This document shows, piece by piece, positions 6,401 through 36,550 of a DNA stretch of 64,000 nt. Source of the stretch: Actinomadura sp. NAK00032 (GTDB taxonomy: Bacteria; Actinomycetota; Actinomycetes; Streptosporangiales; Streptosporangiaceae). The position numbers and the translations under genes were made by a program. Below the pieces are notes generated by a model that had not been told where the DNA came from, ran no database searches, and worked only from the letters and a program-made list of their open reading frames with translations. The stretch spans positions 6,014,001 through 6,078,000 of the forward strand of contig NZ_CP054932.1 in NCBI RefSeq assembly GCF_013364275.1. Reading direction: 5' to 3'. Each line of letters begins with the position of its first letter. Within the stretch, counting starts at the first letter, position 1.

Positions 6401-8134
6401 CGCCCGCACCCGCTCGCCGTCGGCCGGGTCGTGCGCGGGCCGCCCGCTCGCGTCCGGGAAGTCGGAGGCGGTGATCGTCAGGGCGGGGCGGGCGTCGGAC
6501 AGCATGGAGGCGATGCGGTCGGACGGGTACTCGGGGTCGATCGGCACATACGCGGCGCCCGCCTTCAGCACGCCGAGGATCGCCACGACGATCTCGGGCG
6601 TGCGCGGCAGGACGAGCGCGACGCGGTCCTCGGGGCCGATCCCCCGCGCGATCAGCTCGTGGGCGAGCCGGTTGGCGCGCTCGTTCAGCTCCGCGTAGGT
6701 CAGCCGCGCGCCGCCGCAGACGAGCGCCACCTCGGACGGGGTGCGCGCGGCCTGCGGCTCGAACAGCGCGGGCAAGGTGCCGGACGGGATGCCGCCCGCC
6801 GTGTCGTTCCACCGCTCCAGCCGGGACCGCTCGTCCTCCCCCGCGAGGTCCACGGCGCCGATCAGGCGGCCGGAGTCCTCGGCGAACGCCTCCAGGACGC
6901 GGCGGATCCGGGCGAGGATCGCCGCCACGGCCTCCTGCTCGTAGACGTCCGGCCGGTAGTGCAGGCGCAGCGACAGCCGCTCGCCGGGCAGGGCGACGAA
7001 CGACAAGGGGAAGTGGGTCGCGTCATAGGAGTCGACTGCGGCGACGCGGACGCCGTTGAGGGAGCCGTCCATCGAGGACGGGTCGAACGGGTAGTTCTCC
7101 AGCACCGTCATCGTGTCGAACAGGGCGCCGCCGCCGTGGCCCGCCGCGCGCTGGATGTCGGTGAGGCCGAGGTGGTGGTGGGCGAGGAGTTCGGTCTGCT
7201 CGTCCTGGAGGCGCTCCATGAGGGCGCCGAGCGGCTCCTCCATCCGGTAGCGGACGCGGACGGGCAGCGTGTTGATGAACAGGCCGATCATCTGCTCGAT
7301 ACCGGGCAGCTCCGGCGGGCGGCCGGACACGGTCGAGCCGAACACCACGTCGTCGCGGCCGAGCAGCCGGCCGAGGACGAGCCCCCAGGCGCCCTGGAGG
7401 ACGGTGCTCAGCGTGACGCCGTGGCGGCGGGCCGCGCGGGTGAGGCGCCGGGTCGTCCGCTCGTCCAGACCGGTGACGGTCGGCCGCGGGGGCTGCGGCG
7501 CGCGGCCGACGGCCTCCGGCGCGACGAGGCTGGGCTCGTCCACCCCGGCGAGCGCGCGGCGCCACGCCTCCTCGGCGGCGGCGCGGTCCTGCTTCGCGAG
7601 CCACGCCAGGTAGTTCTTGTACGGGGTGACGCGCGGCATCCCCGTGTCGTGGCCGCCCTGCATGTAGAGCAGGAACAGTTCGGTCGCGAGGACCGGCGTG
7701 GACCACCCGTCCAGCAGGATGTGGTGGTTCGTCAGGATCAGCCGGGACCGTTCCGGCCCCATCCGGACGAGCACGAACCGCAGCAGCGGCGGCGCGGTCA
7801 TGTCGAAGCCGCGCGCCCGCTCCCGCGCGACGACGGCGTCGGCCTCCGCGCCGGACGCGGTGACCTCCTCCCACGGCAGCTCGACCGTGCGCGGGATCAC
7901 CTGGACGGGGCGCGACAGGTCCTCGTGCCAGAACGCGGCGCGCAGGTTCGCGTGCCTGCGCAGCAGCGTCCCGGCGGCGGTGCGCAGCGCCCCCGCGTCC
8001 AGGGGCCCCTCCAGATCGAGGACGAGCTGCGCCGTGTAGACGTCCGCGTCGCCCGCGTCGAAGAGCGCATGGAAGAAGAAACCCTGCTGCAGGGGCGACA
8101 GGGGCAGGATGTCCTCAAGGTCCCCCCGGTTCAC
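434..8134 (-). CDS. NRPS subunit B: C-A-T / C-A-T-E (modules 4 and 5)
   Basis: A 2566-residue NRPS with two modules. Approximate layout: C4 1-435 (HHILLDGWS near 140), A4 450-935, T4 950-1020 (GGDSLTAT), C5 1035-1465 (HHIASDGWS), A5 1490-1965, T5 1985-2055 (GGDSIIAIQ), E5 2070-2530 ([13 protein letters not shown]). A4 pocket residues read D-T-M-N-L-G-F-I-D; the acidic last residue suggests a polar or basic substrate, but I do not recognise the code. A5 reads D-F-W-N-V-G-M-V-H, the known threonine code with one conservative change, so module 5 should add Thr and epimerise it. C4 follows an epimerase and looks DCL; C5 follows none and has the [16 protein letters not shown] start of LCL domains. 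The GTG start overlaps the upstream TGA (GTGA), with GGAGG eight bases before it, so the two subunits are translationally coupled. There is no thioesterase. Confidence 0.93.
1928..3640 (-). repeat. Near-identical module segment, copy 1 (A5-T5)
   Basis: The DNA for most of A5, all of T5 and the T-E linker is nearly identical to 9555-11266 (A3-T3). Long stretches match base for base, for example around the T-domain GGDSII codons and the motif around 3180-3240. Divergence rises in the middle, near the A8 region. Both copies have the threonine code. This pattern indicates recent duplication or ongoing gene conversion between modules 3 and 5. Boundaries are by eye and approximate. Confidence 0.8.
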
Positions 8135-11100
8135 GATTTCTGCCTCCAAGCGGTCTGCAGCTTGTCGATCTCGCTCTGGTCCAGGTCCACGAGCAGGTCG
8201 GACGGGGTGAAGCCGGCGGCGTCGCCGGCGGCGGCGTCCGCGGCGAGGGCGCGCAGCGCGGTGAACCAGCCCTCGGCCAGCTCCCGGACGTCGGCGGGCT
8301 CCAGCAGGCCGCCCGGCCACGTCCAGGTCGCCGACAGCACGGGCCCGCCGGGCAGGTCGCGGGTGACGGCGTTGATCTCCAGGACATGCGCCACCGGCAT
8401 CGCCGGGTCCTCGCCGGCGGGCAGTTCCTCGGCGGCGAGCGTCCAGTCGCCGCCCGCGTCCCCGGCGTCGACGCGGCCGAGGTAGTTGAACGCGATCTGC
8501 GGGGGCGGGACGGCGGCCAGCTCCTCGGCGGCCTCGCCGCCGCCGTAGCGGAGCAGGCCGTAGCCGATGCCGCCGTCCGGGACGGCGCGGAGCTGCTCCT
8601 TCACCGCCTTGAGCGCGGCGGCGCCGGTCGCGCTGCCCGCGTCCAGCCGGACCGGGTGGATGGAGGTGAACCAGCCGGCGGTGCGGGACACCTCGGCGCC
8701 GGGGACCACGTCCTCGCGGCCGTGCCCTTCGAGGTCGACGAGGACGCCGGTGCCGCGCCCGCCATGGCGCCGGCGCCACTGGGCGACGGCGAGCGCGAGG
8801 CCGGTGAGCAGCACGTCGTTGACCCGGCCGTGGAACGAGGCCGGGACGTCGGTGAGCAGCGGCCCGGTCACGTCGGCGGGCAGGTCGAGGGCGACCGACC
8901 GGGCGCGGGCCGCGATGTCCACGCGCGGGTCGAGCGGCCGCTTCGCGAGGTTCTGCGGGGGGCCGTCGATGATGTCGAGCCAGTCCTCCAGCTCGTCCTC
9001 GTCCCGCTCGGCGGCGGTGAGCTTCTGCGCCCAGCGGCGGAACGACGTCGGGACGGGTTCGAGGGTCCCGCCGGCCCACGCGGTGACGAGGTCGGGCAGC
9101 AGGATCCGCCACGACACCCCGTCCACGACCAGGTGGTGCAGGACGAGGAGGACGCGGCCCTGGTCGCGGCCCGCGTCGAACCAGACGAGCTGCGCCACCG
9201 TCCCGGCGGCCGGGTCGAGGCGGTCGCGGGCGGCGGTGGCCTGCTCGGTGATGACGGACTGGAGCTTGTCGGCGTCCATGCCCGCGACGTCCACCCGCGT
9301 CACCAGGGCGGCCGCGTCGCACGAGCCGGGCGGCCGGACGACGGGCTGCCAGCCGTCCAGGCGGAGGCGGAGCATGTCGTGGTGGTCCAGGAGCGTCTGG
9401 AGCGCGGCGGTCAGCCGTTCGGCGCCGAGGTCCGGCGGGGTGCGCAGGAGCGTCGACTGGTGGAAGCCGCCGATCAGCGCGGTGTCGCCGCCGACGCGCT
9501 CGCGCAGCCACGCCACGATCGGGGTGACCGGGACGGGGCCGACGCCGGTGCCGGGGGCCTCGGCCTCGACCTCCTCGCCTTCGGCGGCGGGGCGGGCGGT
9601 GGCGGCGAGCTCCTCGACGGTCTGGTGCTGGAACACATCGCGCGGCGTGATGACCAGGCCCGACTGGCGGGCGCGGGAGACCAGCTGGATCGCGATGATC
9701 GAGTCGCCGCCGAGGTCGAAGAACCCGTCGTCGATCCCGACCCGCTCCAGGCCGAGCACCTCGGCGAACAGCCGGGAGAGGGTCTCCTCCTGCGGAGTGC
9801 GCGCGGTGCGGGACGACACCTTCGCGGCGAAGTCGGGCGCGGGCAGCGCCCTGCGGTCGAGCTTGCCGTTGACGGTGAGCGGGAGGGCGTCCAGCTCGAC
9901 GATCACGGCGGGGACCATGTAGTCGGGCAGCTCCTTGCCCGCGAAGCGGCGCAGGTCGGACGAGTCGACGCCCGAGCCGGCGACGTAGGCGACGAGGCGG
10001 TCGTCGCGGACGACCACGGCGACGTCGGAGACGGCGTCGTGGCGGGCGAGGGCCGACTCGATCTCGCCCAGCTCGATCCGGAAGCCGCGCAGCTGCACCT
10101 GCTGGTCGCTGCGGCCGAGGTATTCGAGGCGGCCGTCGTCCAGCCGGCGGCCGAGGTCGCCTGTCCGGTACATGCGGGTGCCGGGCGCGCCGTGCGGGTC
10201 GGCGACGAACCGCTCCGCCGACAGTCCCGGCCGGTTCAGGTACCCGCGCGCCAAGCCCGCGCCCGCCACGTACAGCTCACCGATCACTCCGGGCGGCACG
10301 GGCTGAAGGCGGTCATCGAGGACATAGACCCGCAGGTCGGGGATGCCGACGCCGATGACGCTGCCGGGCGCGGTCGCCGCGTAGGCACGGTCGAGCGCGA
10401 CGTACGAGACGTGCACCGTGGTCTCGGTGATGCCGTACATGTTGACGAGCGTCGGGGCGTTCTCGGGGTGCCGGGAGTACCAGTCCTCCAGGCGCCCCAG
10501 TTCCAGTGCCTCGCCGCCGAACACGATGTAGCGGAGCGCCAGATCGCTGCCCGGGTTGTCCCGGTCGGCGGCCATCAGCTGGTAGAAAGCCGACGGAGTC
10601 TGGTTGAGGACGGTCACCTTCTCGGCGGCCAGGAGAGACAGGAACTCCTCCGGCGACCGCGAGGTCAGGTACGGGACGACGACGAGACGCCCGCCGTACA
10701 GCAGCGGCCCCCACAGCTCCCAGACCGAGAAGTCGAAGGCGTAGGAGTGGAACAGCGTCCAGACGTCGTCCGGACCGAAGCCGAACCACTCCTCCGTCGA
10801 GCGCAGCAGCCGCACCACGTTCTGATGCGGGATCACCACACCCTTCGGACGCCCCGTCGAACCCGACGTGTAGATCACGTACGCCGGATGGTCCGGCGAG
10901 ACCGAGACATCGAGGTCGGCGTCGTCGTAGGCTTCCGCGTCCAGGTCCTCCGGGCGGAGGGTCAGGACGGGACGCGCGTCGTCCACCATGTACGCGATCC
11001 GGTCCTGGGGGTAATCCGGGTCGATCGGCACATACGCCGCGCCCGCCTTCAGCACCGCCAGGATCGCCACGACGAGATCGGCCGAGCGCGGCAGCGCCAG

Positions 11101-14100
11101 CGCCACGAACTGCTCAGGCCCAACCCCCTGCTCGACCAGCTTGCGCGCCAGCCGGTTCGCTCGCGCGTTCACCTCGGCATACGTCCACGACACGCCCTCG
11201 AACGTCACCGCCGGAGCGTCCGGACGCGCCGCGGCCTGCGCCTCGAACAGCGCCGGGATCGTCGCCCGCTCCGCCGCACCGGCGCCGCCACCGGCCCATT
11301 CGCCGAGGATCAGCGACCGCTCCTCCGGCGCCAGGACGTCGGCGCGGCCGATGGGCGCGTCCGGGTCGGCGAGGAGCGCGGACAGGTACCGCTCGAACCG
11401 CTCGACGAGCCGCCGCGCGGTGGCCGGGTCGTACAGGTCGAGGGCGTACTCCAGCTCGCCGTCGAACCCGTCCTCCCGCTCGGTGAGGATCATCAGCAGG
11501 TCGAACCGGGACGCGCTGGCGGCGAGGGGCTCCAGCTCGGCGGTGAAGCCGGGCATCTCCAGCCGCGCCTCCGGGTTGTTCTGGAACGTCAGCCCGATCT
11601 GGAACAGCGGGTGCCGGGCCAGGTGGCGCGGCGGGTTCAGCACCTCGACGAGCCGCTCGAACGGGACGTCCTGGTGCGCGTAGGCGGCGAGGTCGGTCTC
11701 CTTCACACGCCCGATGAGGTCCCGGAACGAAGGGTCTCCAGAGGTGTCGGTACGGAAGACGAGCATGTTCACGAACATGCCGACCAGGTCGTCCAGCGCC
11801 TCGTCCGTGCGGCCCGCGATCGGCGAGCCGATCGGCACGTCCGTCCCCGCGCCGAGCCGGGTCAGCAGCGCGGCGAACGCGGCCTGGGCGACCATGAACG
11901 GGCTCGCGCCGGTCTCCCGCGCGATGCCCAGCAGGGCGGCGTGCACGTCGCCGCCGAGCCGGAACCGCTCGGTCGCGCCCCGGTAGGACGCCTCCGCAGG
12001 GCGCGGCCGGTCGGCCGGGAGCGGCAGCTCCTCCGGCAGCCCGGCCAGGGCGTCCCGCCAGTAGGCGATCTGCCGCGAGACCAGGCTGTCCGGGTCGTCC
12101 TCGGAGCCGAGCAGTTCCTGCTGCCAGAGCGTGTAGTCGGCGTACTGGACGGGCAGCGGCACCCAGTCCGGCGCCGTGCCGCCCGCGCGGGCCGCGTAGG
12201 CGGTGATGAAGTCGCGGGCGAGCGGCGCCATCGACCAGCCGTCGCCGCCGACGTGGTGCAGCAGGAGCAGCGCGACGTGCTCGTCCGGGGCGATCCGGAA
12301 CAGGTGGGTGCGCAGCGGCGGCTCGGCGGTGATGTCGAACGCGTACCCGGCGGCCATGGCGAGCCGGGCCGGGAGCTGCGCGCCGGTGGTCTCGGCGACC
12401 TCCAGCTCGGGGCGGGCGGCGGCCGGGTCCAGGATGGTCTGGCGCGGCACTCCCCCGGCGTCCGGCAGGACGGTGCGGAGCGTCTCGTGCCGGTCCACCA
12501 GGTCGCCGATCGCGGCGCGGAGCGCGTCCGCGTCCAGGGGGCCGCGGATGCGCAGCGCGACCGGCATGTTGTAGGTCGCGGACGGCCCCTCGAACTTGTT
12601 GAGGAACCACTGCCGCTGCTGCGCGTAGGAGAGCGGGAGGACGGCGGGCCGCTCGCGGGGCTCCAGCTGCGGTCGGCCGGACGCCGCGCCCTCCAGCTCG
12701 GCGACGCGCGCGGCGAGGCCGGCGACGGTGGGCGCCTCGAACAGGGCGCGGACGGGCAGCTCGACGCCGAGGGCCCGGCGGATCCGGGTCGCGACCCGCA
12801 TGGCGACGAGCGAGTCCCCGCCCAGCTCGAAGAAGTCGTCGTCGATGCCGAGCGCGTCGATCCCGAGCAGGGCGGCGACGATGCCGGCGACGGCGGCCTC
12901 GCGGGCGTCGCGCGGGGCCCGGTAGGCGGTGCCGGGGCCGGCCTGCTCCGGCTTGGGCAGCGCCTTGGTGTCGACCTTCCCGTTGGGGGTGAGCGGCAGC
13001 TCGTCCAGGACGACCACGGCGGAGGGCACCATCGACTCGGGCAGGTTCTCCCGGACGTGGGCGCGCAGCTCCTCGGGGTCGAGGTCGGCGCCGGGGGCGG
13101 CGACGACGTAGGCGACCAGGCGGCTGCCGCCCGGCGCGGCGCCCCGCCGGGCGGCGGGCGTTCCGGGACCGCTGAGCGCGGCCAGCACGTCGCGCACATC
13201 ACCCGCGCCGGGCAGCGCGATGTCGCCGACGGGGCGGTCCGGGTCGGTGACGAGGGTCTGGACGAGTTCGTCCAGCAGCGCGGTCAGCCGCTCGGCGGTG
13301 GCGCGGCCGAAGACGTCGGGCCGGTACTCCAGCCGGAGCCGGAGCCGCTCGCCCGGCACGGCGAGCAGGGTCAGCGGGTAGTGGGTGGCGTCGACCAGGT
13401 CGGCGCCCGCCAGCCGGACCCCGTCGAACGCGGCCTCCAGCAGCGCGGCGTCCAGCGGGTAGTTCTCGAACACCGTCATGGTGTCGAAGAGCGGGCCGGT
13501 GCCCGCGGCCCGCTGGATCTCGCCGAGGCCGAGGTGGTGGTGGGCGAACAGCCGGGACTGCTCGTCCTGGAGGCGGCCGAGGCCGTCCATGAGGGTCTCG
13601 GCGGCGTCGAGGCGGACCCGGACCGGCAGCGTGTTGATGAACAGCCCGATCATCTGCTCGGATCCGGGCAGCTCGGGCGGCCGGCCGGAGACGGTGGCGC
13701 CGAACACCACGTCGTCGCGGCCGGTGAGCCGCGCGAGCAGCAGCCCCCACAGCCCCTGCACGACGGTGTTCGGGGTCAGGCCGTGGCTCCGCGCCCGCGC
13801 GGACAGGCCGTCCGACAGGTCTTCGGGCAGGTCGAGGACGACGTGCTCGGGCAGGACGGGCGGCCGGTCGGCGGCGGCCGGGGCCAGCACGGTCGGTTCG
13901 GCGAGGCCCTCCAGGGCCGTGCGCCACGCGTCGCGGGCGGCGTCGCCGTCCTGGGCGTCCAGCCAGGCCAGGTGCTCCTTGTAGGGGGCGGTGCGCGGCG
14001 GCTGCTCGCCGGTGTAGAGGGCGAGGAGTTCACCGGCCAGCACCGGGATGGACCAGCCGTCCAGGACGATGTGGTGGGCGGTGAGCAGGAGCCGGTGACG

Positions 14101-17100
14101 GCCGGGGCCGAGGCGGAGCAGCGCGAAGCGCAGCAGCGGCGGGCGTCCGAGGTCGAACGGGCGGGACCGCTCGGCGGTCATGGCCTCCCGGACCTGCGCG
14201 TCCGGCGCGCCGCCGAGGTCGGTCTCCCGCCAGGGCGCCTCCGCCTCGCCGAGGACGATCTGCACCGGGGTGCCGTCGCCGGTCTGGGCGAACGCGGCGC
14301 GCAGTCCGGGGTGCCGGTCGACGAGGCCCTGCCCGGCCGCGCGCAGGGCGGCGGTGTCGAGCGGGCCTTCGAAGTCGAGGACGAGCTGGGCGGTGTAGAC
14401 GTCGGAGCCGGAGTCGAGCAGCGCGTGGAAGAAGAAGCCCTGCTGGAGCGGTGAGAGCGGCCAGAGGTCGGCCAGCCCCGGACGGGCGGCCGCGACCTCG
14501 GCGACCTCGGTCCGGGTCAGCGGGACCAGCGGGAAGTCGGAGGGGGTGTGCCCGCCCCCGCCCGCCGCGACGTGCGCGGCGATGCCCCGCAGCGCCTCGA
14601 ACCAGTTGTCGGCCAGTTCCCGGACGTCCGCGGCGTCCAGGATCTTCGCGGCCCACGTCCAGGTGGCCGACAGGCGGGGCCCGGCGGCCGAGTCCCGCGC
14701 GACCGCGTCGATCTCCACGGTGTGGGCGAGCGGCATGGCGGCGTCGCCGCCGCCGTCCAGGGCGCCGGCCTCGGCGGCGATGCTCCAGTCGCCGGAGGTG
14801 TCCTCGACCCGGCCGAGGTAGTTGACGACGATCTGCGGCGCGGGCAAGGCGGCGAGTTCCCGGCCGGTCTCCTCGTTCAGGTGGCGGAGCAGGCCGTAGC
14901 CGAGGCCGTTGTCCGGCAGCGTCCGGAGCCGCTCCTTGGCGTTGCGGACGGCCTCGCCCGCCGCCGGTCCGCCCGCGCGGACCTCGTCCCACGCCGCGTC
15001 GCCCGCGTCGCCCGCGTCGAGTCGGACGGGGAACATGCTGGTGAACCAGCCGACCGTCCGCGACAGGTCGAGGGCCGCGGCGCCCGGGGACGCGGGCAGG
15101 TCCTCGCGGCCGTGGCCTTCCAGGTCCACCAGGACGGCGGAGTCGCGGAGGGCGACGCCCCGGCGGCGGCGCCATTCGGTCACCGCGAGGGCCAGTCCGG
15201 CGAGCAGGACGTCGTTGACGCGGCCGTGGAACGCGGCGGGCACGCCGGTCAGCAGCGCCGATGTGGTGGCCTCGTCCAGTTCCAGGGTGAGGCTGCCGGC
15301 GGTGGCCCGGGTGTCCTGGGCGGGGTCGAGGGGGCGGTCGCCGAGGAGGGCGTCCCCGGTCCGCAGCATCTCGGTCCACAGGCCGAGTTCGGCGGTCCGC
15401 CGCGCGGTGGCGGCCTCCTCGGCGAGCCGCTGCGCCCAGCGGCGGAACGACGTGCCGGCGGGGTCGAGCCGGGCGGGCTCTCCGGTGGTGCTCGCCGCCC
15501 AGGCGGTGACGAGGTCGGGCAGCAGGATCCGCCAGGACACGCCGTCCACGACCAGGTGGTGCAGCACGACCAGCAGCCGGCCGGGCGCCTGCGCGCCCGC
15601 GTCCAGCCACACGAGCTGCGCCATCGTCCCGGACGCGGGGTCCAGGCGGCCGCGCGCGAGGCCGGCCTGCGCCGCGACGGTCTCCGCCAGGGCGGCGTCG
15701 TCCGCTCCGGCGACGTCGACCCGGTGGACGCACGCGGCGGCGTCGACGGTGCCGGGCGCGGTGATCCGCGGGTCGCCGCCGGCGGGGACGGTCATCCGGA
15801 GGGCGTCGTGGTGGTCGAGGACGGCCTGCAGCGCGCGGGTCAGGCGGTCGGTGCCCAGGCCGGGCGGGGTGCGCAGCAGGACGCTCTGGCTGAAGCCGCC
15901 GCTCGGGCCGCCGAGGCCGCGCAGCCACCGCATGATCGGGGTGGCGGGGAACGCGCCCACGCCCGCGTCCGACTCCTCGGCGGTGCCGTCCGCCCCGGTG
16001 CCGGCGGGCAGCGCCACCTGGGCGAGGGCCTCCACGGTCGGGTACCGGAAGACCTCCCGCGGCGACAGCACCAGGCCGGCCCGCCGCGCCCGCGACACCA
16101 GCCGCATCGCGATGATCGAGTCGCCGCCGAGGTCGAAGAAGCCGTCGTCGATCCCGACCCGGGCGACGCCCAGCACCTCGGCGAACAGGTCCGCCAGCAG
16201 CGCCTCGGCGGGGGTGCGCGGCGCGCGGCCCGACGCCCGCGCCGCGAAGTCGGGGGCGGGCAGCGCCGCCCGGTCGAGCTTGCCGCTCGGGTTCAGCGGC
16301 AGCGCGTCCAACGGCACCACCGCCGCCGGGACCATGTACGCGGGCAGCGTCTCGGCGGCGAACCGGCGCAGCTCGCCGGGGTCGACCGGGCCGGACGGGA
16401 CGACGTAGGCGATCAGCCGCGGGGTGCCCGGCTGGTCCTCCCGGGGCACCACGACCGCCTGGCCCACCGCGGGGTGCCGGGCGAGCGCGGTCTCGATCTC
16501 GCCCGGCTCGATGCGGAAGCCGCGGATCTTCACCTGGTGGTCGAGGCGGCCCAGGTACTCGATCTGCCCGGCGCCGTTCCAGCGGGCGAGGTCGCCGGTG
16601 CGGTACATCCGCTCGCCGGGCGCGCCGAACGGGCAGGCGACGAACCGCTCGGCGGTGAGCGCGGACCGGTCCAGGTAGCCGCGGGCCAGGCCCGCGCCCG
16701 CCAGGTACAGCTCGCCGGGCACGCCGGCGGGGACGGGCCGGAGCGCGGCGTCCAGCACGTAGGCGCGGGTGTTGGCGATCGGGCCGCCGATCGGGGCGCG
16801 GCCGGCGGCGTTGCCGTCGTCGAACCAGGCCGTCGCGTAGACGGTCGCCTCGGTGGGGCCGTAGATGTTGGCGATGCGGGCGTCCGGCAGCAGGGCCCGC
16901 AGATCGTGGACGAGCTTGGCGGGCAGCGCCTCGCCGGCGAGGACGACGTCGCCCGCCTCCAGCGCCGGGGCCCCCGTCGCCAGCAGCGCCGACACCGCCG
17001 ACGGCACGCCGCTGACCAGCGTCCCGGACCAGCCGCCGCGCTCGGCGACCTCCAGCAGGTCCCGGACGACCTCGATGTGGCCGCCCATGGTGAGCGGCGT

Positions 17101-19089
17101 CAGCCACTCGAACACCGACACGTCGAAGTTCAGCGACGTGGAGAACAGGACGCGGGCGAGCCGGCCGGGGCCGAAGTCCCGCTCCGCCCACGCGCACAGG
17201 TCGGCGGCGCCGGCGTGGGAGACGACGACGCCCTTCGGACGTCCCGTGGAACCGGAGGTGTAGATGACGTAGGCGGCGTCGGCCGGGTGCAGCGGGCGGA
17301 CCCGGTCGGCGTCGGTCACGGCCGCGCCGGCGGTGTCGCCACCGGGCGGGGCGGCGAGGGAGGACGGGTCGAGTTCCAGGCGCGGCGCCGCGCCGGGCAG
17401 GTCGGCGCCCGGGGTCGTGATGACGCAGGCCGGGGACGCGTCGTCCAGCATGAACGCGATGCGGTCCGGCGGGTAGGCGAGGTCGACCGGCTGGTAGGCC
17501 GCGCCCGACTTCAGCACGGCGAGCGCCGCGACGACCAGGTTCTCGTCGCGCGGCAGGGCGAGGGCGACGAAGTCGCCGGGGCCGGCGCCGCGGGCGATCA
17601 GCCGGCGGGCGAGGCGGCCGGCGCGCTCGTCCAGCTCCCGGTAGGTGAGGGTCGTGCCGGCGTGCGTGACGGCGGGCGCGTCCGGGGTGCGGGCGGCCTG
17701 CGCCTCGAACAGCTCCGGGACGACGGCGGGCGCGACCGGCAGCGCCGTGTCGTTCCACGCGTGCAGGACGCGGGACCGCTCGGCGGCGTCCAGCAGCTCC
17801 ACGTCGCGGAGCGGGGTCGCCGGGTCCACCTCCCCGAGCGTCCGCATGAAGCGCAGGTAGCGGTGCAGGTGCGCGGCGACCTCGTCCTCGGTGTAGAGGT
17901 CCGGGTGGGCCTCGAAGTCGACGCGCAGCCCGGCGCCGTCGAAGTTGTCGTAGACGTTGATGGACAGGTCGTCGACGGGCCCGGTCGTGACGGCGTGCAT
18001 CCGCGCCGGCAGGCCCGCGAAGTCCAGCCGGTAGTCGAACGCCATGATGTTGATGACGGGCCCGTACAGCCGGTGCCGCTCGCCCAGCAGCTTCAGGTCG
18101 CGGACCAGGTCGTCGCGGCGGTAGCGCTGGTGCCGCAGCGCCCGCGCGGTCGCGCGGGTCGCGGCGCGGACCAGGTCGTCCACCGTCATGTCCGGGGCGA
18201 CGCGGACCCGCAGCGGCAGGATCGTCGACATCATCGCCGGGGTCCGCATCGCCAGCCGGGTGGTGCGGCCGGTGACGGCGAGGCCGAGGATCACGTCCTC
18301 GGCGCCGGTCATCCGCGCCACGTACGCGGCGGTCGCGGCGATCGCGAGGCCCGGGGTCGCGGTGCGCAGCCGGCGGGCGCCCGCCGCGAGCGCGGCGCTC
18401 TCCGCCGGCGGGACGACGCCGATCATGCTCCGGTAGTCGGCGGTGGGCTCGGCGGTGCCCTCGGCCAGCGACACCGCCGCCGGGCGGTCGGCGAACCGCT
18501 CGGTCCAGTAGGCGCGGTCCCGCTCGAACCTCTCCGACGCCCGGTAGGCCTCCTCCTCGGCGAGCAGCGCCCGGTAGTCGCCCAGCTCCGCCGGGACGTA
18601 CGCGCCGCCGGCGGACAGCGAAGTGTAGATCTCGGCGGCGCGGCGGCTGACCATCGGGCCGCTGAAGCCGTCCTGGATGATGTGGTGCGCGCGGATGAAC
18701 CAGCGGTGCAGGTCCGGCGCGAGCCGCAGCAGGGCGGTGCTGAACAGCCGCTCGCCGTCCAGCGGCAGCGGTTCGGCCATGCGCGCGCGCATCCACGCGC
18801 GCGCGGCGGCGTCCGGGTCGGGCTCGCCGGACAGGTCCACGAGCGGGACCGACACGGAGGCGTCCGGGTCGAGGATCTGGCGGACGGCCCCGTCCGCCTC
18901 CACGAGCCGCGCGTTCATCGCGAGGCCCTCGTGCGCGCCGAGCCGCGCGACGCGGTCGAACAGCGCGTGGTCGAGCGGTCCCTCGATCTCGATGTACTGC
19001 GCGATGTGAATCGGCGTTTCCGGCGCCAGCTGCTGCGCGTACCAGACGCTCTGCTGAGCGGCCGAAAGGGGAACGTACTCGGTGGGCAT
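8131..19089 (-). CDS. NRPS subunit A: C-A-T-E / C-(A tail)-T / C-A-T-E (modules 1-3)
   Basis: A 3652-residue NRPS with three modules. Module 1: C1 1-430 ([10 protein letters not shown]), A1 445-945, T1 960-1040, E1 1055-1500. Module 2: C2 1515-1945 (HHIVLDGWS), a remnant A tail about 1985-2050, T2 2060-2130 (GGDSLVAMR). Module 3: C3 2145-2570 (HHVGGDGWS), A3 2600-3080, T3 3100-3165, E3 3185-3630. C1 resembles EntF/DhbF-type starter C domains ([23 protein letters not shown]), which take an aryl or other cap. The A1 code reads D-V-F-S-V-A-I-V-Y, substrate not recognised. A3 reads D-F-W-N-V-G-M-V-H, threonine. Module 2 has no A1-A8 motifs: the sequence passes from the C domain through a 35-residue linker to [14 protein letters not shown] and the A10 motif LTPNGKVD. 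It must be loaded in trans, most likely by the protein at 19540-21084. ATG at 19089 is preferred over TTG at 19092; the ribosome site (GGGAAAG) is weak. Confidence 0.93.
9555..11266 (-). repeat. Near-identical module segment, copy 2 (A3-T3)
   Basis: Partner of the segment at 1928-3640. The predicted T-domain and linker proteins are almost residue-identical ([18 protein letters not shown] through [16 protein letters not shown]). The C domains just upstream of each copy also share exact DNA stretches, for example 11784-11875 with 4169-4258. The E domains downstream are clearly related but more diverged. Confidence 0.8.
12955..13130 (-). other. Remnant adenylation C-terminal sub-domain in module 2 (A10 only)
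   Basis: This stretch encodes about 58 residues between C2 and T2 of the NRPS. It reads RLVAYVV, then [20 protein letters not shown], then [12 protein letters not shown]. In intact A domains of this cluster the same order follows the A8 motif by some 25 residues. It carries the A10 lysine needed for adenylation. All upstream A motifs (A1 to A8) are missing, with no frameshift and no stop. The free-standing A protein at 19540-21084 stops just before the equivalent point, so the two pieces add up to one domain. Confidence 0.85.
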
Positions 19090-19092
19090 CAA

Positions 19093-19539: not shown

Positions 19540-21084
19540 TCAGCGGGCCGGGTACTCGTGCACGACCACCGCGGCGGCGCGCACCCCGGGGTGCCGCTGC
19601 AGGACGGCCTCGATCTCGCCCAGCTCCATCCGCACCCCGGCGATCTTGACCTGCCGGTCGACGCGCCCGAGGTACTGCAGGGTGGGCCGGTCCTCGCCGC
19701 CGGCGCCCGCCGGGAGCAGCTTGACCGCGTCGCCCGTCCGGTACAGCCGGCCCGTCGGGGACGCGGGGTCGAACGGGTCGCGGTAGAACGCCTCGCGGGT
19801 CCGCTCGTCGTTGCCGAGGTAGCCGCGCCCGACGACGACCCCGCCGACGAACAGCTCGCCGGTCTCGCCGACGTCGCAGGCCGTCCAGGCGCCCTCGTCC
19901 TCGCGCAGCACGTACAGGCGCGCGTTGACGACGGGGGTGCCGATCGGGAGGCGCAGGAGCTTCAGGTCGCCGGCCGTCACGGTGTGGTGGGTGACGTCGT
20001 CGGAGCACTCGGTGGGGCCGTAGGCGTTGAGGAGCCGGGCGTGCGGCATGGCCTCCAGCCAGCGGCGCGACAGCTCGGCGGGCAGCTCCTCGCCCGTGGC
20101 GATCATCCAGCGCAACCCCGCCAATGACCGTTGCCGGGGGGTCGTCCCCCCGGAATGAGACGAGCCGGGGGCGAGGTCGTCGAGGAGGTGCCTGACCATG
20201 GTGGGGACGAGCTCGACGACCGTGATGCCCTGCTCGTCCACGGCGCGGGCGAACGCGGCCGGGTCGTGCCCGACCTCGTCGCCGATCACGTCGACCCGGC
20301 CGCCGACCAGCAGCGGGCACAGCATCTGCCAGATCGAGATGTCGAAGCCGAGCGGGGCGGTGAAGGCGACGGCGTCCGCGCCGGTCAGCTCCAGGTCGAC
20401 GATCTTCGCCCAGAGGTGGTTGAGCATGCCCTGGTGCTCGACGACGGCGCCCTTCGGCCGGCCCGTCGACCCGGAGGTGAACAGCACGTACCGGGGCTGG
20501 TCGGGGGCGGTGAGGCGGGGCTCGCCCGGCCAGGGCGCCAGGCCGCGCGCGGCGGCCGCGTCGAGGACCCGGCAGCCTGCCTCCGCGGCGCCCGCGAGCA
20601 GGGCCGGGGCGGTGCGCGGGCCGTCCACCGCGACCAGCACGGACGCGCCCGCCTGGCCGAGGACGTCGCGGACGCGCCCGGCGGGCCACGTCTCGTCCGC
20701 CGGCACGTACAGGGCGCCGACCAGCTCGATCGCCAGGAACGCGGCGATGACCTCGGCGCGGCGGCCGCCGCCGACGCCGACGACGGTGCCCGGCTCGACG
20801 CCCTCGGCCGCCAGCAGCGCGGCGAGCCGGCGGGCCTCGGCGGCCAGGTCGCCATAGGAGAGCGTGCGGCGCCCGTCGGCGACCGCCGACCGGTCCCGCT
20901 CGGCGGCGAACCGCTCCACCCGCGTGATGACCGGGTCGCCCAGGTCGACCTCCAGGTCGCGGAGCATCCCGTGCCGGGCGGCCAGCTCCCGGGCCCGCCC
21001 GGCCTCGGCCGCGGGCACGTCCAGGGCGGGCAGCCCGGCCGTGGGCAGCAGCCGGTCCGCGGCGGGTCCGCGAGCAGTCATCAT
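19540..21084 (-). CDS. Free-standing NRPS adenylation protein lacking the A10 tail
   Basis: A 514-residue adenylation protein with no C or T domain. Visible motifs: [11 protein letters not shown] near 210 (A3), AYGPTE (A5), GELFVGG (A6), YRTGD (A7) and GRVDRQVKIAGVRMELGEIE (A8). It ends about 20 residues after A8 with VVVHEYPAR and a stop; the C-terminal 80-100 residues with A10 Lys are absent. Pocket residues read D-I-W-E-I-T-A-D-D, with three acidic side chains (Glu at 278, Asp at 330 and 331, GrsA numbering), consistent with an extra amine in the substrate such as Dap. The missing tail is present in module 2 of the NRPS, so I infer a split A domain working in trans. ATG at 21084, or the next ATG at 21081, has GGAG upstream. 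A hairpin-derived 14-residue insert (GSSHSGGTTPRQRS) sits between A4 and A5. Confidence 0.88.
   Translation of the reverse strand: MMTARGPAADRLLPTAGLPALDVPAAEAGRARELAARHGMLRDLEVDLGDPVITRVERFAAERDRSAVADGRRTLSYGDLAAEARRLAALLAAEGVEPGTVVGVGGGRRAEVIAAFLAIELVGALYVPADETWPAGRVRDVLGQAGASVLVAVDGPRTAPALLAGAAEAGCRVLDAAAARGLAPWPGEPRLTAPDQPRYVLFTSGSTGRPKGAVVEHQGMLNHLWAKIVDLELTGADAVAFTAPLGFDISIWQMLCPLLVGGRVDVIGDEVGHDPAAFARAVDEQGITVVELVPTMVRHLLDDLAPGSSHSGGTTPRQRSLAGLRWMIATGEELPAELSRRWLEAMPHARLLNAYGPTECSDDVTHHTVTAGDLKLLRLPIGTPVVNARLYVLREDEGAWTACDVGETGELFVGGVVVGRGYLGNDERTREAFYRDPFDPASPTGRLYRTGDAVKLLPAGAGGEDRPTLQYLGRVDRQVKIAGVRMELGEIEAVLQRHPGVRAAAVVVHEYPAR
20134..20153. repeat. GC hairpin inside the free-standing A gene
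   Basis: Perfect 8-bp arms CCGGGGGG and CCCCCCGG around TCGT. It codes for part of a low-complexity stretch (SSHSGGTTPRQ) that ordinary A domains lack at this point. A similar hairpin (GGGGGG-TCCG-CCTCCC) occurs in the gap at 55347-55368. It may be a small palindromic repeat inserted in frame. Confidence 0.55.
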
Positions 21085-21106
21085 TACTCTCCGTGATGTA
21101 GAACCA

Positions 21107-21134
21107 CTCCGCTGTAACAGCAATACAAGCGGAG
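21107..21134. promoter_or_regulatory. Inverted repeat in the divergent A-gene / Dap promoter region
   Basis: Arms CTCCGCT (21107-21113) and AGCGGAG (21128-21134) are separated by an AT-richer 14-bp centre. It lies 24 bases upstream of the A gene and 180 bases upstream of the Dap synthase gene. It could be an operator shared by the divergent units, or a hairpin in the A-gene leader. Confidence 0.4.
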
Positions 21135-21317
21135 CCATAGCTTATGTCCGGCACCTGCCAGAAGCATCTCGCATTCCAACCTACCAACGAGTAATCAGGG
21201 GGTTGCGACGGCAACTTGCTCGCAGGTACGGTGAGGCTCCGCATGGCTCTGGCGTGAAGCCCGGCGGCGAACTCGGGGGAAGATGAGGGAATTGTTTCTT
21301 CATTTGAGGGTGGACGC

Positions 21318-22295
21318 GTGCCGATAATCACCTCGCCGCAGGAATTCAACGTCGACGACCTTTACGTCGATCTGCGGGCCGTTATCAAGCGGCCGCTCTA
21401 CCTTAAATGCGAGGGCTTCAATTTCGCCGGCTCGGTCAAGCTGAAGGCGGCCGCCGCGATGGTCGAGGCGGCCGAGCGCGACGGCGCGCTCACCGCGGGC
21501 TCGGTGATCGTCGAGTCGTCGTCCGGCAACCTCGGGATCGCGCTCAGCCTCATCGCCGCGAGCCGCGGCCTGCGGTTCGTCTGCGTGACCGACCCGCGCT
21601 GCAACGCCGCGTCGATGCGGGTCATGCGGGCGCTCGGCGCCGAGGTCCGGGTCGTCTCCGACCGGGACGCCAACGGCGGCTACCTCGGCGGCCGGATCGC
21701 CTACGTCCGGAACCTGTGCGAATCCGACGAGCGGTACGTGTGGCTGAACCAGTACGCCAACCGCAACAACTGGCTGGCGCACTACCGCGGGACCGCGCCG
21801 GCGATCGACCGGGAGTTCCCGGACCTGGAGGTTCTCTTCGTCGGCGCCGGCACCACGGGCACCCTGATGGGCTGCGCCCGCTACTTCCGCGAGCACCGGC
21901 GCCCCGTCACGATCGTGGCGGTCGACGCGGTCGGCTCCGTCACCTTCGGCGGCATCCCGGAGCGGCGCATGGTGCCGGGCCTCGGCACCAGCAGCAGGCC
22001 CGCGCTCGTGGACGAGTCGTTCATCGACGACGTCGTGCACGTCGCCGAGCCCGACACCATCCGGACCGTGCACGCGCTCGCCGCCCGCGGGTTCCTGTTC
22101 GGCGGCTCCACCGGCACCGTCGTGTCCGGCGCGTCCCGCTGGCTGGACGCCAAGTACCCCGGCGAGGACCCGGTCGCCGTGGCGATCGCCCCCGACCTCG
22201 GCGAACGCTACCTGGACTCCATCTACGCGGAGGGCTGGGTGCGCGAGCACTTCGGCGACCTGCCCGCCGAACCCGCCGGTATCCTCGGCGACTGA
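21318..22295 (+). CDS. sbnA: SbnA-like N-(2-amino-2-carboxyethyl)-L-glutamate synthase
   Basis: A 325-residue PLP enzyme of the cysteine-synthase fold. In staphyloferrin B biosynthesis SbnA joins O-phospho-L-serine and L-glutamate to give ACEGA, the precursor of L-2,3-diaminopropionate (Dap). The PLP lysine is K41 in GSVKLK; SSSGNLG is the phosphate/substrate loop. The length suits SbnA and its VioB-type relatives rather than a primary cysteine synthase, and the SbnB-like partner follows after 28 bases. The GTG start has GAGGGTGG upstream. The gene is divergent from the adenylation gene, which suggests shared control and that Dap is a peptide building block. Dap from this pair can also feed other molecules, so the assignment to this peptide is an inference. 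Confidence 0.9.
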   Translation: MPIITSPQEFNVDDLYVDLRAVIKRPLYLKCEGFNFAGSVKLKAAAAMVEAAERDGALTAGSVIVESSSGNLGIALSLIAASRGLRFVCVTDPRCNAASMRVMRALGAEVRVVSDRDANGGYLGGRIAYVRNLCESDERYVWLNQYANRNNWLAHYRGTAPAIDREFPDLEVLFVGAGTTGTLMGCARYFREHRRPVTIVAVDAVGSVTFGGIPERRMVPGLGTSSRPALVDESFIDDVVHVAEPDTIRTVHALAARGFLFGGSTGTVVSGASRWLDAKYPGEDPVAVAIAPDLGERYLDSIYAEGWVREHFGDLPAEPAGILGD

Positions 22296-22323
22296 TCATC
22301 GAGAAAAGACGGAGTTTCCCACC

Positions 22324-23349
22324 ATGACGCAGGTTCCGGCATTCGCCGTGGTCTCCGGTGCCCAGGTCCACGAGGCCGTCGCCGGGCGCGAGGAGCAGGT
22401 CACCCGGATGGTCGAGGCGGCCTACCGGCTGCACGGCGAGGGGCTGACCGTCAACCCCGACTCCTACTTCCTGCGGTTCCCGGACCGCCCGTCCGACCGG
22501 ATCATCGCCCTGCCCGCCTCGGTCAAGGGCGACGTCGGCGTGCACGGCATCAAGTGGATCTCCAGCTTCCCCGGCAACGTCGCGGACGGCATCCCGCGGG
22601 CCTCGGCCGTGCTGGTCCTCAACGACGCCGACACCGGCTACCCGTTCGCGTGCCTGGAGAGCTCGATCATCTCCGCGGCCCGCACCGCCGCCTCCGCCGC
22701 GCTCGCCGCCGCCACCCTCGCCGACGCCCGCGGCGACCGGCCCCGCCGCGTCGGCTTCATCGGGGTCGGCCTCATCGCCCGCTACCTCCACACCTACCTG
22801 GCGGGCAACGGCTTCGCCTTCGACGAGCTGGGCGTCCACGACCTCTCCCGCGAGCACGCCGAGGGGTTCCAGGAGTACCTGGAGCGCTCGGAGAAGGGCG
22901 AGATCACGATCCACGACTCGGCGGAGTCGCTGATCCGCGCGTCCGACCTGATCGTCTTCGCGACGGTCGCCGGCGAGCCGCACGTCCACGACCCGGCCTG
23001 GTTCGCGCACAACCCGCTCGTGCTGCACGTGTCGCTGCGCGACCTCTCCCCCGAGATCATCCTGTCGTCCTACAACGTCGTGGACGACGTCGAGCACTGC
23101 ATGAAGGCCAACACGTCCCCGCACCTGGCCGAGCAGAAGGTCGGCAACCGCGACTTCGTCGCCGGCACCCTCTACGACGTCCTCACCGGCACGACGGCCC
23201 CGCCCGCCGACAAGCCCGTGGTCTTCTCCCCCTTCGGCCTGGGCGTCTTGGACCTGGCGGTGGCGAAGTACGTCTACGACCAGGTCGAGTCCGCGGGCAC
23301 CCTGCACACGGTCCCCGACTTCTTCCACGAGCTGAAGCGCTACGGCTGA
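22324..23349 (+). CDS. sbnB: SbnB-like ACEGA dehydrogenase (Dap synthase)
   Basis: A 341-residue member of the ornithine cyclodeaminase/mu-crystallin family. SbnB oxidatively cleaves ACEGA with NAD to release 2-oxoglutarate and L-Dap. The Rossmann motif is GFIGVGLIARYL; the N-terminal half has the family pattern GIKWISSFPGN and SAVLVLNDADTGYPFACLES. The pairing with an SbnA-like gene is diagnostic, since ornithine cyclodeaminase alone would make proline. The start has GGAG ten bases upstream. Its last 10 bases overlap the 3' end of the convergent NUDIX gene, which marks the right border of the Dap operon. Confidence 0.9.
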   Translation: MTQVPAFAVVSGAQVHEAVAGREEQVTRMVEAAYRLHGEGLTVNPDSYFLRFPDRPSDRIIALPASVKGDVGVHGIKWISSFPGNVADGIPRASAVLVLNDADTGYPFACLESSIISAARTAASAALAAATLADARGDRPRRVGFIGVGLIARYLHTYLAGNGFAFDELGVHDLSREHAEGFQEYLERSEKGEITIHDSAESLIRASDLIVFATVAGEPHVHDPAWFAHNPLVLHVSLRDLSPEIILSSYNVVDDVEHCMKANTSPHLAEQKVGNRDFVAGTLYDVLTGTTAPPADKPVVFSPFGLGVLDLAVAKYVYDQVESAGTLHTVPDFFHELKRYG

Positions 23350-34260: not shown

Positions 34261-34959
34261 GTGTCGAGGGACGGGGAACCCCCAGTCAACGATGGCTCCG
34301 GGGCCGGGCCGGAGCAGGCCTCCGGCGGGGACGGGGACGAGGGCGCGGCCTTCCGCGCCGGCGTCCGGGACGCCCTGGCCGGGCTCGCCGCGCGGCTCGA
34401 CCGCGAGCACGAGCGGGCGGCGCACCGCGAGGCGGTGATCGACCGGCTGCACGAGGAGAACCAGCGGCTGCGGCGCGGGGAGCTGCAGCACCTGCTGGAG
34501 CCCGTCCGCACCGCGCTGTACCGGGTGCACGACCAGGCGCGCCGCGAGTCCGGCCGGCTCGCCGCGCCGGGCCCCGCCGAAGCCCCCGACCCCGGCCAGA
34601 CCGCGCTGCTGCTGGCGGCGCTCGCCGACGACGTCGCGGACGCGCTGGCGCGGCTCGGCGTCGAGCGGTTCACGGTCGAGCCCGGCGCCCCCTACGACGC
34701 CTCCCGGCACCGCCCGGTCGCGGTCACGCCCGTCGCCGACCCGCTGGCCGACGGCACCGTCACCGCCGTCCAGTCCGACGGCTTCGAGCAGGGCGGCAAG
34801 GTGCTGCGCAAGGCGGCGGTCAGCGTCGGCAAGCTCGACCAGGGCGCCGGCGGCGCCGGCGAGAAGGACCTGGAGCCCGCCGGCAGGGCCGCCCAGGCGG
34901 GCCGCGACGGGGCGGAGCGCGGCGAGACGATGAACTCAGGACTCGGGACCGACAGGTGA
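34261..34959 (+). CDS. grpE: GrpE-like nucleotide exchange factor
   Basis: A 232-residue GrpE homologue. Residues about 30-75 form a charged coiled coil (EHERAAHREAVIDRLHEENQRLRRGEL). The C-terminal beta part is typical of GrpE: RFTVEPGAPYDASRHRPVAVTPVADPLADGTV and GFEQGGKVLRKAAVSVGK. It should release ADP from the Hsp70 encoded seven bases downstream. It is diverged from housekeeping GrpE, with a longer low-complexity N-terminus and a disordered tail. GTG at 34261 has AAGG nine bases before it. It is the first gene of a six-gene operon that runs to 44119. Confidence 0.82.
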   Translation: MSRDGEPPVNDGSGAGPEQASGGDGDEGAAFRAGVRDALAGLAARLDREHERAAHREAVIDRLHEENQRLRRGELQHLLEPVRTALYRVHDQARRESGRLAAPGPAEAPDPGQTALLLAALADDVADALARLGVERFTVEPGAPYDASRHRPVAVTPVADPLADGTVTAVQSDGFEQGGKVLRKAAVSVGKLDQGAGGAGEKDLEPAGRAAQAGRDGAERGETMNSGLGTDR

Positions 34960-34966
34960 GAGGGAC

Positions 34967-36550
34967 ATGGCTGTCTACGGGATCGACCTCGGAACCACGT
35001 ACTCCTGCATTGCCTCCATCGACGACGTGGGGCGGCCCTCGGTCCTGCGGAACCTGGAGGGCACCGACACCACGCCGTCCGTCGTCTTCTTCGAGAGCGG
35101 CGAGAACGTCGTCGTCGGCGCCACCGCGAAGGACACCGCGGTCCTGGAGCCCGACAACGTCGTCAGCCTGATCAAGCGGGACATGGGCCGCGACGTGACG
35201 CGGCCCGTCCACGGGATCGACTTCACCCCGGAGGAGGTGTCGGCGTTCATCCTGCTGAAGCTCGCGACGGACGCGCGCACCACCACCGGTGAGGACGCCC
35301 GCGACGTCGTCATCACCGTGCCCGCCTACTTCGGCGCGGCCGAGCGCGACGCGACCCGCAAGGCGGGCCGGATCGCCGGGCTGAACGTCATCGACATCGT
35401 GTCCGAGCCGATCGCCGCCGCGATCACCTACGGCGTGCTGAACCCCGAGCAGGACCGCACGATCCTGGTCTACGACCTCGGCGGCGGCACGTTCGACACC
35501 ACCGTCATCACGCTGCGCGACGGCCACATCGAGGTGGTGTGCACCGACGGCGACCACGAGCTCGGCGGCGCCGACTGGGACGCGCGGCTGGTGGAGCACC
35601 TCGCCGAGCGGTTCCGCGAGGAGCACCCCGACGCGGGCGACCCGCTCGACGACAAGCAGACCGAGCAGCAGCTCCGCCGCGACGCCGAGGACGCCAAGAA
35701 GGCCCTCACCACCCGCACGTCCCAGACGGTGCGGGTGATGCACGCCGGGCGGGTCGCGGCGGTCGAGGTGACGCGGGAGAAGCTGGAGGAGCTGACCAAG
35801 GACCTCCTCGACCGCACCGTGGAGATCACCGGCCGGACGCTGTCGACGGCCGCCGACAAGGGCGTGGACGACTACGACGACCTCGTGCTCGTCGGCGGGT
35901 CCACGAAGATGCCGGTGGTCGCGGCGCGGCTGCAGACCGAGCTCGGCCTGTCCCCCCGCCTCCAGGACCCCGACCTCGCGGTCGCCAAGGGCGCCGCCCT
36001 GTACGCGTTCGAGGAGACCTACCGGCGGCTCGTCCGGGAGGGCGCCGCCGACCGCGCCGAGGAGATGGCGAGCCGGGCGGGCCTGTCCGCCGAGCAGCAG
36101 AAGCAGATCGCCGGGCGGCAGATCAAGACGGTCGCCTCGCACGCGTTCGGCATCGTCGTGGTCGACCGGGAGAGCGGCGCCGAGACCGTCGCGCACCTCG
36201 TGCACGCCAACGACGCGCTGCCCGCCGCGAAGACCGAGGACTTCTTCACCGTCTACGACGACCAGGCGTCCGCCGACATCCGGGTGATGGAGCAGGCCGG
36301 CGTCGTCGAGTCCGCCGACCTGATCGACAACACCGAGATCGCGACCGGGGAGATCCGCGTCCCGCCGGGCAAGAAGGCGGGCTGGCCGATCGGCGTCACG
36401 TTCGCGCTCGACTCCTCCGGGCTGCTGAACGTCACGGCCGTGGAGAAGGAGACCGGCGAGCGGCTGGAGCTGAAGGTGGACGTCGGCGGCATGTCGGAGG
36501 AGGAGGTCGAGCGGTCCCGCAAGGCCCTCTCCCGGGTCCAGGTGAGCTGA
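34967..36550 (+). CDS. Short Hsp70-family chaperone
   Basis: A 527-residue Hsp70. The nucleotide-binding domain is complete: GIDLGTTYSC at 5, VYDLGGGTFDTT near 167, VLVGGSTKMP near 308. A beta-type substrate domain follows (about 390-510). The C-terminal helical lid of DnaK (normally reaching 600-640) is missing, and the usual hydrophobic interdomain linker (DVLLLDV) is replaced by KTVASHAFGIVVV. The protein is therefore probably a specialised Hsp70. The start has GAGAGGGAC directly before ATG. No J-domain gene is present; the next gene lacks an HPD motif. The GTPase genes downstream suggest that the chaperone acts on, or is regulated by, that system. Confidence 0.88.
   Translation: MAVYGIDLGTTYSCIASIDDVGRPSVLRNLEGTDTTPSVVFFESGENVVVGATAKDTAVLEPDNVVSLIKRDMGRDVTRPVHGIDFTPEEVSAFILLKLATDARTTTGEDARDVVITVPAYFGAAERDATRKAGRIAGLNVIDIVSEPIAAAITYGVLNPEQDRTILVYDLGGGTFDTTVITLRDGHIEVVCTDGDHELGGADWDARLVEHLAERFREEHPDAGDPLDDKQTEQQLRRDAEDAKKALTTRTSQTVRVMHAGRVAAVEVTREKLEELTKDLLDRTVEITGRTLSTAADKGVDDYDDLVLVGGSTKMPVVAARLQTELGLSPRLQDPDLAVAKGAALYAFEETYRRLVREGAADRAEEMASRAGLSAEQQKQIAGRQIKTVASHAFGIVVVDRESGAETVAHLVHANDALPAAKTEDFFTVYDDQASADIRVMEQAGVVESADLIDNTEIATGEIRVPPGKKAGWPIGVTFALDSSGLLNVTAVEKETGERLELKVDVGGMSEEEVERSRKALSRVQVS

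Follow-up and report, generated by a model that had tools for sequence, protein, structure and literature searches.

How is an amino acid activated for a nonribosomal peptide synthetase (NRPS) module that has no adenylation (A) core of its own, when a lone A protein is encoded beside the synthetase? The locus that raises this question lies in a 64,000-nucleotide stretch of the soil bacterium Actinomadura sp. NAK00032 (contig NZ_CP054932.1, positions 6,014,001 to 6,078,000; hereafter the window, from whose first letter coordinates are counted). The original prediction was that an SbnA/SbnB gene pair supplies L-2,3-diaminopropionate (Dap) to a divergent A protein with an acid-lined pocket, and that this links substrate and enzyme with an A-less module 2 in the neighbouring synthetase NRPS1. 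Our analysis suggests that the A protein and module 2 carry the two parts of one A domain, broken within its small subdomain (Asub). The features concerned are as follows (C, condensation; T or PCP, carrier; E, epimerization; TE, thioesterase domain):

19540 to 21138, minus strand: stand-alone (trans) adenylation core, with motifs A3 to A8 and the first half of Asub, lacking A9 and A10 and ending ...VRAAAVVVHEYPAR
19540 to 19671, minus strand: the core's C-terminal tail, which begins at LGRVDRQVK, runs to the stop codon and corresponds to the first half of Asub
8131 to 19092, minus strand: NRPS1, C-A-T-E / C-[half-Asub]-T / C-A-T-E
13222 to 14460, minus strand: condensation domain C2 of NRPS1 module 2
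12949 to 13137, minus strand: acceptor half-Asub of module 2 (RLVAYVV ... LPESMVP ... NGKVD), lying between C2 and PCP2, where no A core is present
13033 to 13035, minus strand: codon of Ser2020 in A9 (LPESMVP), where the ordinary cis A domains that were read have an aromatic residue
12976 to 12978, minus strand: codon of the A10 lysine, NRPS1 residue 2039, invariant in a 30-row alignment and predicted to supply what the active site of the trans core lacks
12697 to 12906, minus strand: PCP2, the carrier of module 2

The A protein matches PF00501 (E 2.5e-74) and TIGR01733 (350.3 bits against a cut-off of 317.4), and by Pfam it contains AMP-binding only, AMP-binding_C and PP-binding both being absent. 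It stops about 43 residues past the start of motif A8, without A9, A10 or the catalytic lysine; its C-terminus reads ...QVKIAGVRMELGEIEAVLQRHPGVRAAAVVVHEYPAR, the cut falling after the segment that ends VVVHE, and the missing part of Asub, sought in all frames after the stop codon, was not found there. The start codon is probably at 21084 rather than 21138, because the alignment of homologous frames (n=20) agrees from an M(M)xARGP motif on and most of them have no methionine upstream of it; GTG or TTG starts may also be used. NRPS1 has three AMP-binding_C matches against two AMP-binding matches, and the surplus one is the half-Asub of module 2. No methyltransferase insertion is present at the break, as Pfam gives NRPS1 just C, AMP-binding, PP-binding and AMP-binding_C domains. 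Laid end to end, the end of the core and the start of the acceptor (RLVAYVV) make up one Asub. The module that had been called A-less does lack an A core, but it has kept the A9-A10 half of the small subdomain.

The split is not peculiar to this strain. We fetched 52 SbnA-anchored stretches from 48 genomes, and 46 of them contain a lone core; among the other six the core is cut by the contig end in two (L080, L084; L numbers denote loci, G numbers genomes) and four have none beside SbnA (L085, L087, L088, L089). The A3, A5, A6, A7 and A8 patterns are each present in 45 of the 46 cores, the exception (L043) being an NRPS fragment, and GK[VILT]D follows A8 in none of the 45 complete cores. The distance from the start of LGRVDRQVK to the end of the core is 41 to 74 residues in all 45 (41 to 46 in 42 of them, and 52, 55 and 74 in the others). 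One acceptor is found in 40 of the 46 lone-core stretches; four of the rest end before module 2 (L043, L076, L079, L081) and two have none in the stretch (L082, L083). That the split is an artefact of this one genome, through a frameshift, a misassembly or an erroneous fission, is therefore a negligible possibility, and we rejected it, since the same arrangement recurs across many separate assemblies and no Asub frame lies downstream of the core.

In a second set, anchored on the core itself (80 loci, 60 of them with a lone core), an acceptor lies within the stretch in 43 of the 60. Across the genus, the core profile matches 56 of 65 genomes, of which 54 were counted as lone core; G035 and G053, with frames of 660 and 664 residues, were counted as one-chain by length (the 660-residue L156 has both core and Asub). 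An acceptor match of at least 268 bits is present in 51 of the 54 lone-core genomes and in 0 of the 11 others (Fisher p 4e-10, ignoring shared descent); at a profile threshold of 1e-55 those 11 gave no match at all, and the next-best match among those listed, 215 bits, belongs to the second system of G039. The lone-core genomes without an acceptor are G013 and G034, whose draft contigs end there, and G011 (A. litoris, 198 bits). Judged by these matches, the split arrangement is common to most Actinomadura species searched. Among 394 genomes drawn evenly from the class, just six matched the core profile at 1e-130, three in short frames (two from Actinomadura and one from another genus, the latter frame counting one TGA) and three in long ones, so the lone core appears to be rare outside this group.

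The acceptor half-Asub has a signature of its own. We kept 88 acceptors, leaving out the L077 row with its 436-residue gap, and 56 of these are distinct. All 56 retain NGK, and all have a small residue at the A9 position of Ser2020 (S 40, A 12, P 2, T 1, Q 1), whereas the 153 of 165 ordinary cis domains that were readable by pattern are all aromatic there (Y 122, H 28, F 3); the other 12 were unreadable, and the pattern left out one-chain relatives of the core. Most acceptors read NGKVDT or NGKVDV, the cis domains mostly NGKLDR. A tree built from the C-terminal half, about 60 residues long, groups the 56 acceptors in a single clade (support 0.963), outside which fall all 153 cis domains and all eight one-chain relatives. 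When all frames were counted, an A8 match was lacking at 62 small-A9 sites and present at 165 aromatic sites. Among the exceptions, 47 aromatic sites have no A8 match, mostly because of QVQL- or QLKV-type A8 motifs missed by the pattern, while two sites in L179 and single ones in L184 (whose start is cut) and L191 have other arrangements; nine small-A9 sites do have an A8 match. Outside the actinobacteria, a metagenome-assembled genome (MAG) of Aminicenantes (L169:1-9603) has a small-A9 half-Asub with no upstream A8 match, which may be an unrelated second instance of this arrangement or may reflect a motif that the pattern missed. Mean pairwise ratios of nonsynonymous to synonymous differences (pN/pS, uncorrected) are 0.37 for the half-Asub (n=40), 0.33 for PCP2 (n=38) and 0.09 for the core tail (n=45); by this measure the module 2 half-Asub is under purifying selection. 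Two complementary halves, their conservation and their co-occurrence can thus be read directly from the sequences.

We think it likely that these are the parts of one adenylation domain, split within the small subdomain, in which a trans core is completed by a lid held in cis for Dap activation on module 2. In this scheme SbnA and SbnB would supply L-Dap; the core would contribute the pocket for Dap, the site for ATP, the hinge at A8 and the first half of Asub, and the second half, which includes A9 and the lysine of A10, would come from module 2, where it is tethered between C2 and PCP2. The core would dock on module 2 by completing the Asub sheet and fold, and the joined domain would adenylate Dap and load PCP2. 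Docking and catalysis would be one event, and a competent enzyme would form only on module 2. That the halves physically reassemble and load PCP2 is what the sequences lead us to expect. The proposed link between the core and module 2 is borne out by the co-occurrence of core and acceptor across the genus, and since the A protein is incomplete without the module 2 half-subdomain, the link is probably physical, through one split domain, and not only metabolic. AlphaFold2 models, both made from shallow alignments, are consistent with this. The core alone has a mean predicted local distance difference test score (pLDDT) of 75.6 and a predicted template modelling score (pTM) of 0.80; in this isolated model its tail (residues 495-532) is mostly below pLDDT 50, with blocks of 32-48 from residue 491, as are a few other short stretches, some close to the pocket. 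The low scores of the tail fit one that needs a partner. The acceptor model has a pTM of 0.43, with half-Asub block means of pLDDT 83-93 over residues 31-80 and less confidence in linker and carrier.

A domain broken in this way has a precedent in corallorazine, the only functional split A domain that we found in the open-access literature searched, where the A domain likewise spans two genes: it is interrupted between A8 and A9, and the partner protein carries the catalytic A9-A10. By the available text of that report (PMC11342130), Crz1.2 is inactive alone and active with Crz2, which bears A9-A10, and this shows that two pieces of an A domain, separated between A8 and A9, can function together; its authors describe this as, to their knowledge, the first experimental report of a split A domain. 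The Crz break lies between adjacent genes at an N-methyltransferase insertion, and the partner starts at A9-A10, followed by T-TD. Here, in contrast, it is an internal module that lacks its core, no methyltransferase is inserted, and the gene for the core lies beside substrate supply genes. What we find in Actinomadura resembles Crz in that the domain is interrupted between A8 and A9 and a different protein of the pathway carries A9-A10; a complete A domain on the trans protein, usually with its own PCP, as in conventional trans A enzymes, is not what the core presents.

The core could nevertheless act as such an enzyme, adenylating and loading PCP2 alone, with the half-Asub a vestige or a mere docking patch. 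Stand-alone A enzymes do serve A-deficient modules, in WS9326A, where Cal22 and Cal23 act for a module without its own A domain (PMC7539972), and in albicidin, ramoplanin and enduracidin (PMC8949500), as far as these papers' accessible text goes. Cal22 and Cal23 are A-PCP didomains, however, and that text describes no half-subdomain in the acceptor; these trans partners are didomains and not bare cores. Also against independent action are the absence of the A10 motif from all 45 complete cores, the half-Asub itself, which keeps its lysine in 56 of 56 distinct acceptors and is under purifying selection, and the inactivity of Crz1.2 without A9-A10. We regard independent action of the core as improbable. 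In the capreomycin pathway L-Dap is likewise loaded in trans onto an A-less module with an MbtH-like protein involved, but CmnI is a T-C protein for which the accessible text of the report (PMC12400406) describes no Asub piece, and the trans A (CmnA-A1) is a whole A domain of another module. The Actinomadura split is not named in the titles and abstract openings of the open-access literature searched, and looking there for the pocket codes gave no result either. Kutzneride KtzH/KtzN, which did not turn up in that literature, is reportedly a truncated A domain with a trans partner and could be a precedent.

Some observations weigh against a split domain that activates Dap. The small A9 residue is not confined to acceptors, since the nine such sites with an A8 match are the eight one-chain relatives (8/8) and one domain of L165, a KSB1 MAG, which breaks the rule. 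The acceptor halves are 47% identical to the one-chain relatives and 52% to the cis domains; not being closer to the former, the two halves need not share one ancestral domain. One A. litoris locus (L177) also holds a C-PCP without any Asub, as independent action of the core would allow, so some carriers may be loaded without a half-Asub, or this one may be dead. With regard to the substrate, complete lone cores stand without SbnA or SbnB in the stretch in L128, L152 and L153; the pocket code is one residue off that of pyoverdine PvdL A3 and three off that of Dap-bound SulM A3; and the genome encodes an L-2,4-diaminobutyrate (Dab) transaminase (G000:C1:3504858, 472 bits against a cut-off of 401.6). 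The last two bear on whether Dap or Dab is activated, a choice that turns on SbnA and SbnB.

The supply genes are transcribed divergently from the A protein, whose gene lies upstream of NRPS1 on its strand:

21318 to 22295, plus strand: SbnA, pyridoxal-phosphate enzyme of L-Dap synthesis (TIGR03945, 383.2 bits against a cut-off of 349.95)
22324 to 23349, plus strand: SbnB, its NAD-dependent partner enzyme in L-Dap synthesis (TIGR03944, 423.9 bits against a cut-off of 326.9)

Both halves of the predicted SbnA/SbnB pair next to the A protein thus pass curated equivalog cut-offs, and no other SbnA match in the genome exceeds the cut-off; by family membership the two enzymes probably make L-Dap. 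SbnB is present in 44 of the 46 SbnA-anchored stretches with a lone core. The proximity of SbnA is by construction in the 52 stretches chosen by it, and the core-anchored loci repeat the count: SbnA is present in 55 of the 60 lone-core loci and both genes in 53. Of the five without SbnA, two cores are cut by the contig end (L127, L142) and three are those complete cores named above.

The pocket residues D-I-W-E-I-T-A-D-D, first read by eye, were recovered exactly, as D266 I267 W270 E309 I346 T348 A372 D380 D381, by alignment to a GrsA fragment. The fetched stretches gave 101 core matches above 550 bits, a number that includes duplicates between collections; 85 of these read DIWEITADD, 14 DIWELTADD, and one each DIWEVTADD and DIWEINADD. 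Against solved structures the pocket region finds four PvdL entries first (best chain, PvdL A3, PDB 9up2) and Dap-bound SulM A3 next; Foldseek with the core model returns NRPS A domains, with a PvdL A3 structure on top and SulM A3 at ranks 12 and 14. The codes read off the alignments are DIWELTADD for PvdL A3 and DVWEMNADD for SulM A3, and W239, E278, D330 and D331 (GrsA numbering) are common to all three proteins, so the acidic trio indicates a diamino acid without choosing between Dap and Dab. The acidic pocket therefore keeps its predicted meaning as a diamino acid site, but as a pointer to Dap itself it is not supported, the code being closer to PvdL A3. Sulfazecin SulM A3 (PDB 9n1u; PMC11298585, as far as its accessible text goes) is Dap-activating, has the same acidic trio (E, D, D) and lies beside the Dap genes sulG and sulH, but unlike the core it activates in cis. 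PvdL A3 belongs to a larger cis module construct, again unlike the core, and PvdL incorporates Glu, D-Tyr and L-Dab according to the accessible part of PMC6206403; given this residue order, we infer that Dab is the residue activated by A3, the domain after E2. Two Dap codes share 80% identity with Dab codes, according to the available text of a survey (PMC12283262).

If the split domain is as proposed, its substrate could thus be Dab or another small diamino acid, as the nearness of the code to PvdL A3 and the Dab transaminase would suggest. That transaminase lies 2.5 Mb away, and a class-III aminotransferase in the window (58351-59604) is under both Dab transaminase cut-offs (280 against 671 and 249.5 against 401.6), whereas 53 of the 60 core-anchored lone-core loci hold SbnA and SbnB. 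Because these genes are present we prefer Dap as the probable core substrate and consider Dab or a similar amino acid unlikely.

Other cores extend the picture. Second lone cores in A. oligospora (L152:9863-11329) and A. nitritigenes (L153:9878-11401) are more distant (54-57% identity), have the code DIWELTADD and likewise stop after A8; that of L153 adjoins an NRPS whose module has just a core fragment before Asub. Two A enzymes (L158, L160) have the pocket VVWQITADD, with the Asp that binds the alpha-amine replaced, a pattern that we take to indicate a possible beta-amino acid substrate. Five Streptomyces loci (L148, L149, L150, L151, L154) have the same pocket code as the window, beside distant SbnA-like and SbnB-like genes. 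These five and Actinomadura L156 are one-chain relatives with about 15 extra residues at the split point, so the loop there tolerates change; one-chain relatives L155 and L157 have no such long insert.

Elsewhere, modules retain remnants of dead cores, either portions of A6-A7 that have lost A8 or an A core that lacks its P-loop. They occur in Nonomuraea (L174, L182, L188), Actinomadura sp. OS1-43 (L187) and A. litoris (L177), and in these modules the half from RLVAYVV onward is intact by eye; in Streptomyces modules L172, L183 and L184 the core is wholly gone. L177 (G099:C18:43000-55861) has three variously decayed A cores with the acceptor half-Asub kept, possibly a series of A-domain loss within one assembly line. 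The corresponding Streptomyces, Nonomuraea and A. litoris genomes have lone cores coded DIWELTADD, one residue off the window's; these presumably serve the decayed or core-less modules, core and acceptor not in every case being placed in one cluster. We tentatively raise the further idea, which is more doubtful than the split itself, that the half-Asub, with its small A9 and usually NGKVD[TV], is a portable dock, that one Dap core serves any module that carries it, and that such docks have repeatedly replaced whole A domains in actinobacterial lines (Actinomadura and relatives, Streptomyces, Nonomuraea and more than one A. litoris module). Core and dock would then amount to split-domain complementation occurring in nature, with a single residue loaded at selected positions.

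With a topology that differs from that of corallorazine, this second and genus-wide case points to the A8-A9 loop as a place where A domains are naturally cut, and to a dock of about 60 residues as a means of bringing a trans core to an internal module; such a dock would let engineers change one peptide residue without cutting the megasynthase. Modules of this kind, which would be annotated as A-less, could be recognized in the sequence by a missing core together with a small A9 residue.

The remainder of the synthetase is encoded leftward:

434 to 8134, minus strand: NRPS2, C-A-T-C-A-T-E
3 to 449, minus strand: N-terminal portion of NRPS3 (C-A-T-TE), the rest of which lies to the left of the window

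NRPS3 extends about 3.5 kb past the window to its TE domain, and is followed by an MbtH-like match (G000:C1:6010374-6010529), a GNAT protein and a thioesterase. By domain order the whole line is C-A-T-E / C-[half-Asub]-T / C-A-T-E / C-A-T / C-A-T-E / C-A-T-TE. Both C and E domains are scored as 'Condensation' by Pfam, and the E domains of NRPS1 and NRPS2 are those that we presume from their position. The codes of the A domains at 11220-10078, 3586-2444, 6724-5582 and 17682-16513 are DFWNVGMVH in two, which we take to be threonine-like, DTWNLGFID in one and DVFSVAIVY in one; that of NRPS3 is DAYFLGMTY. Further right in the window, a DnaK-like protein of 527 amino acids (34967-36550) lies beside a short GrpE-like protein (34261-34959), and the pair is followed by an 867-amino-acid protein with no Pfam match at 1e-8 and then by a protein with a double-GTPase domain.

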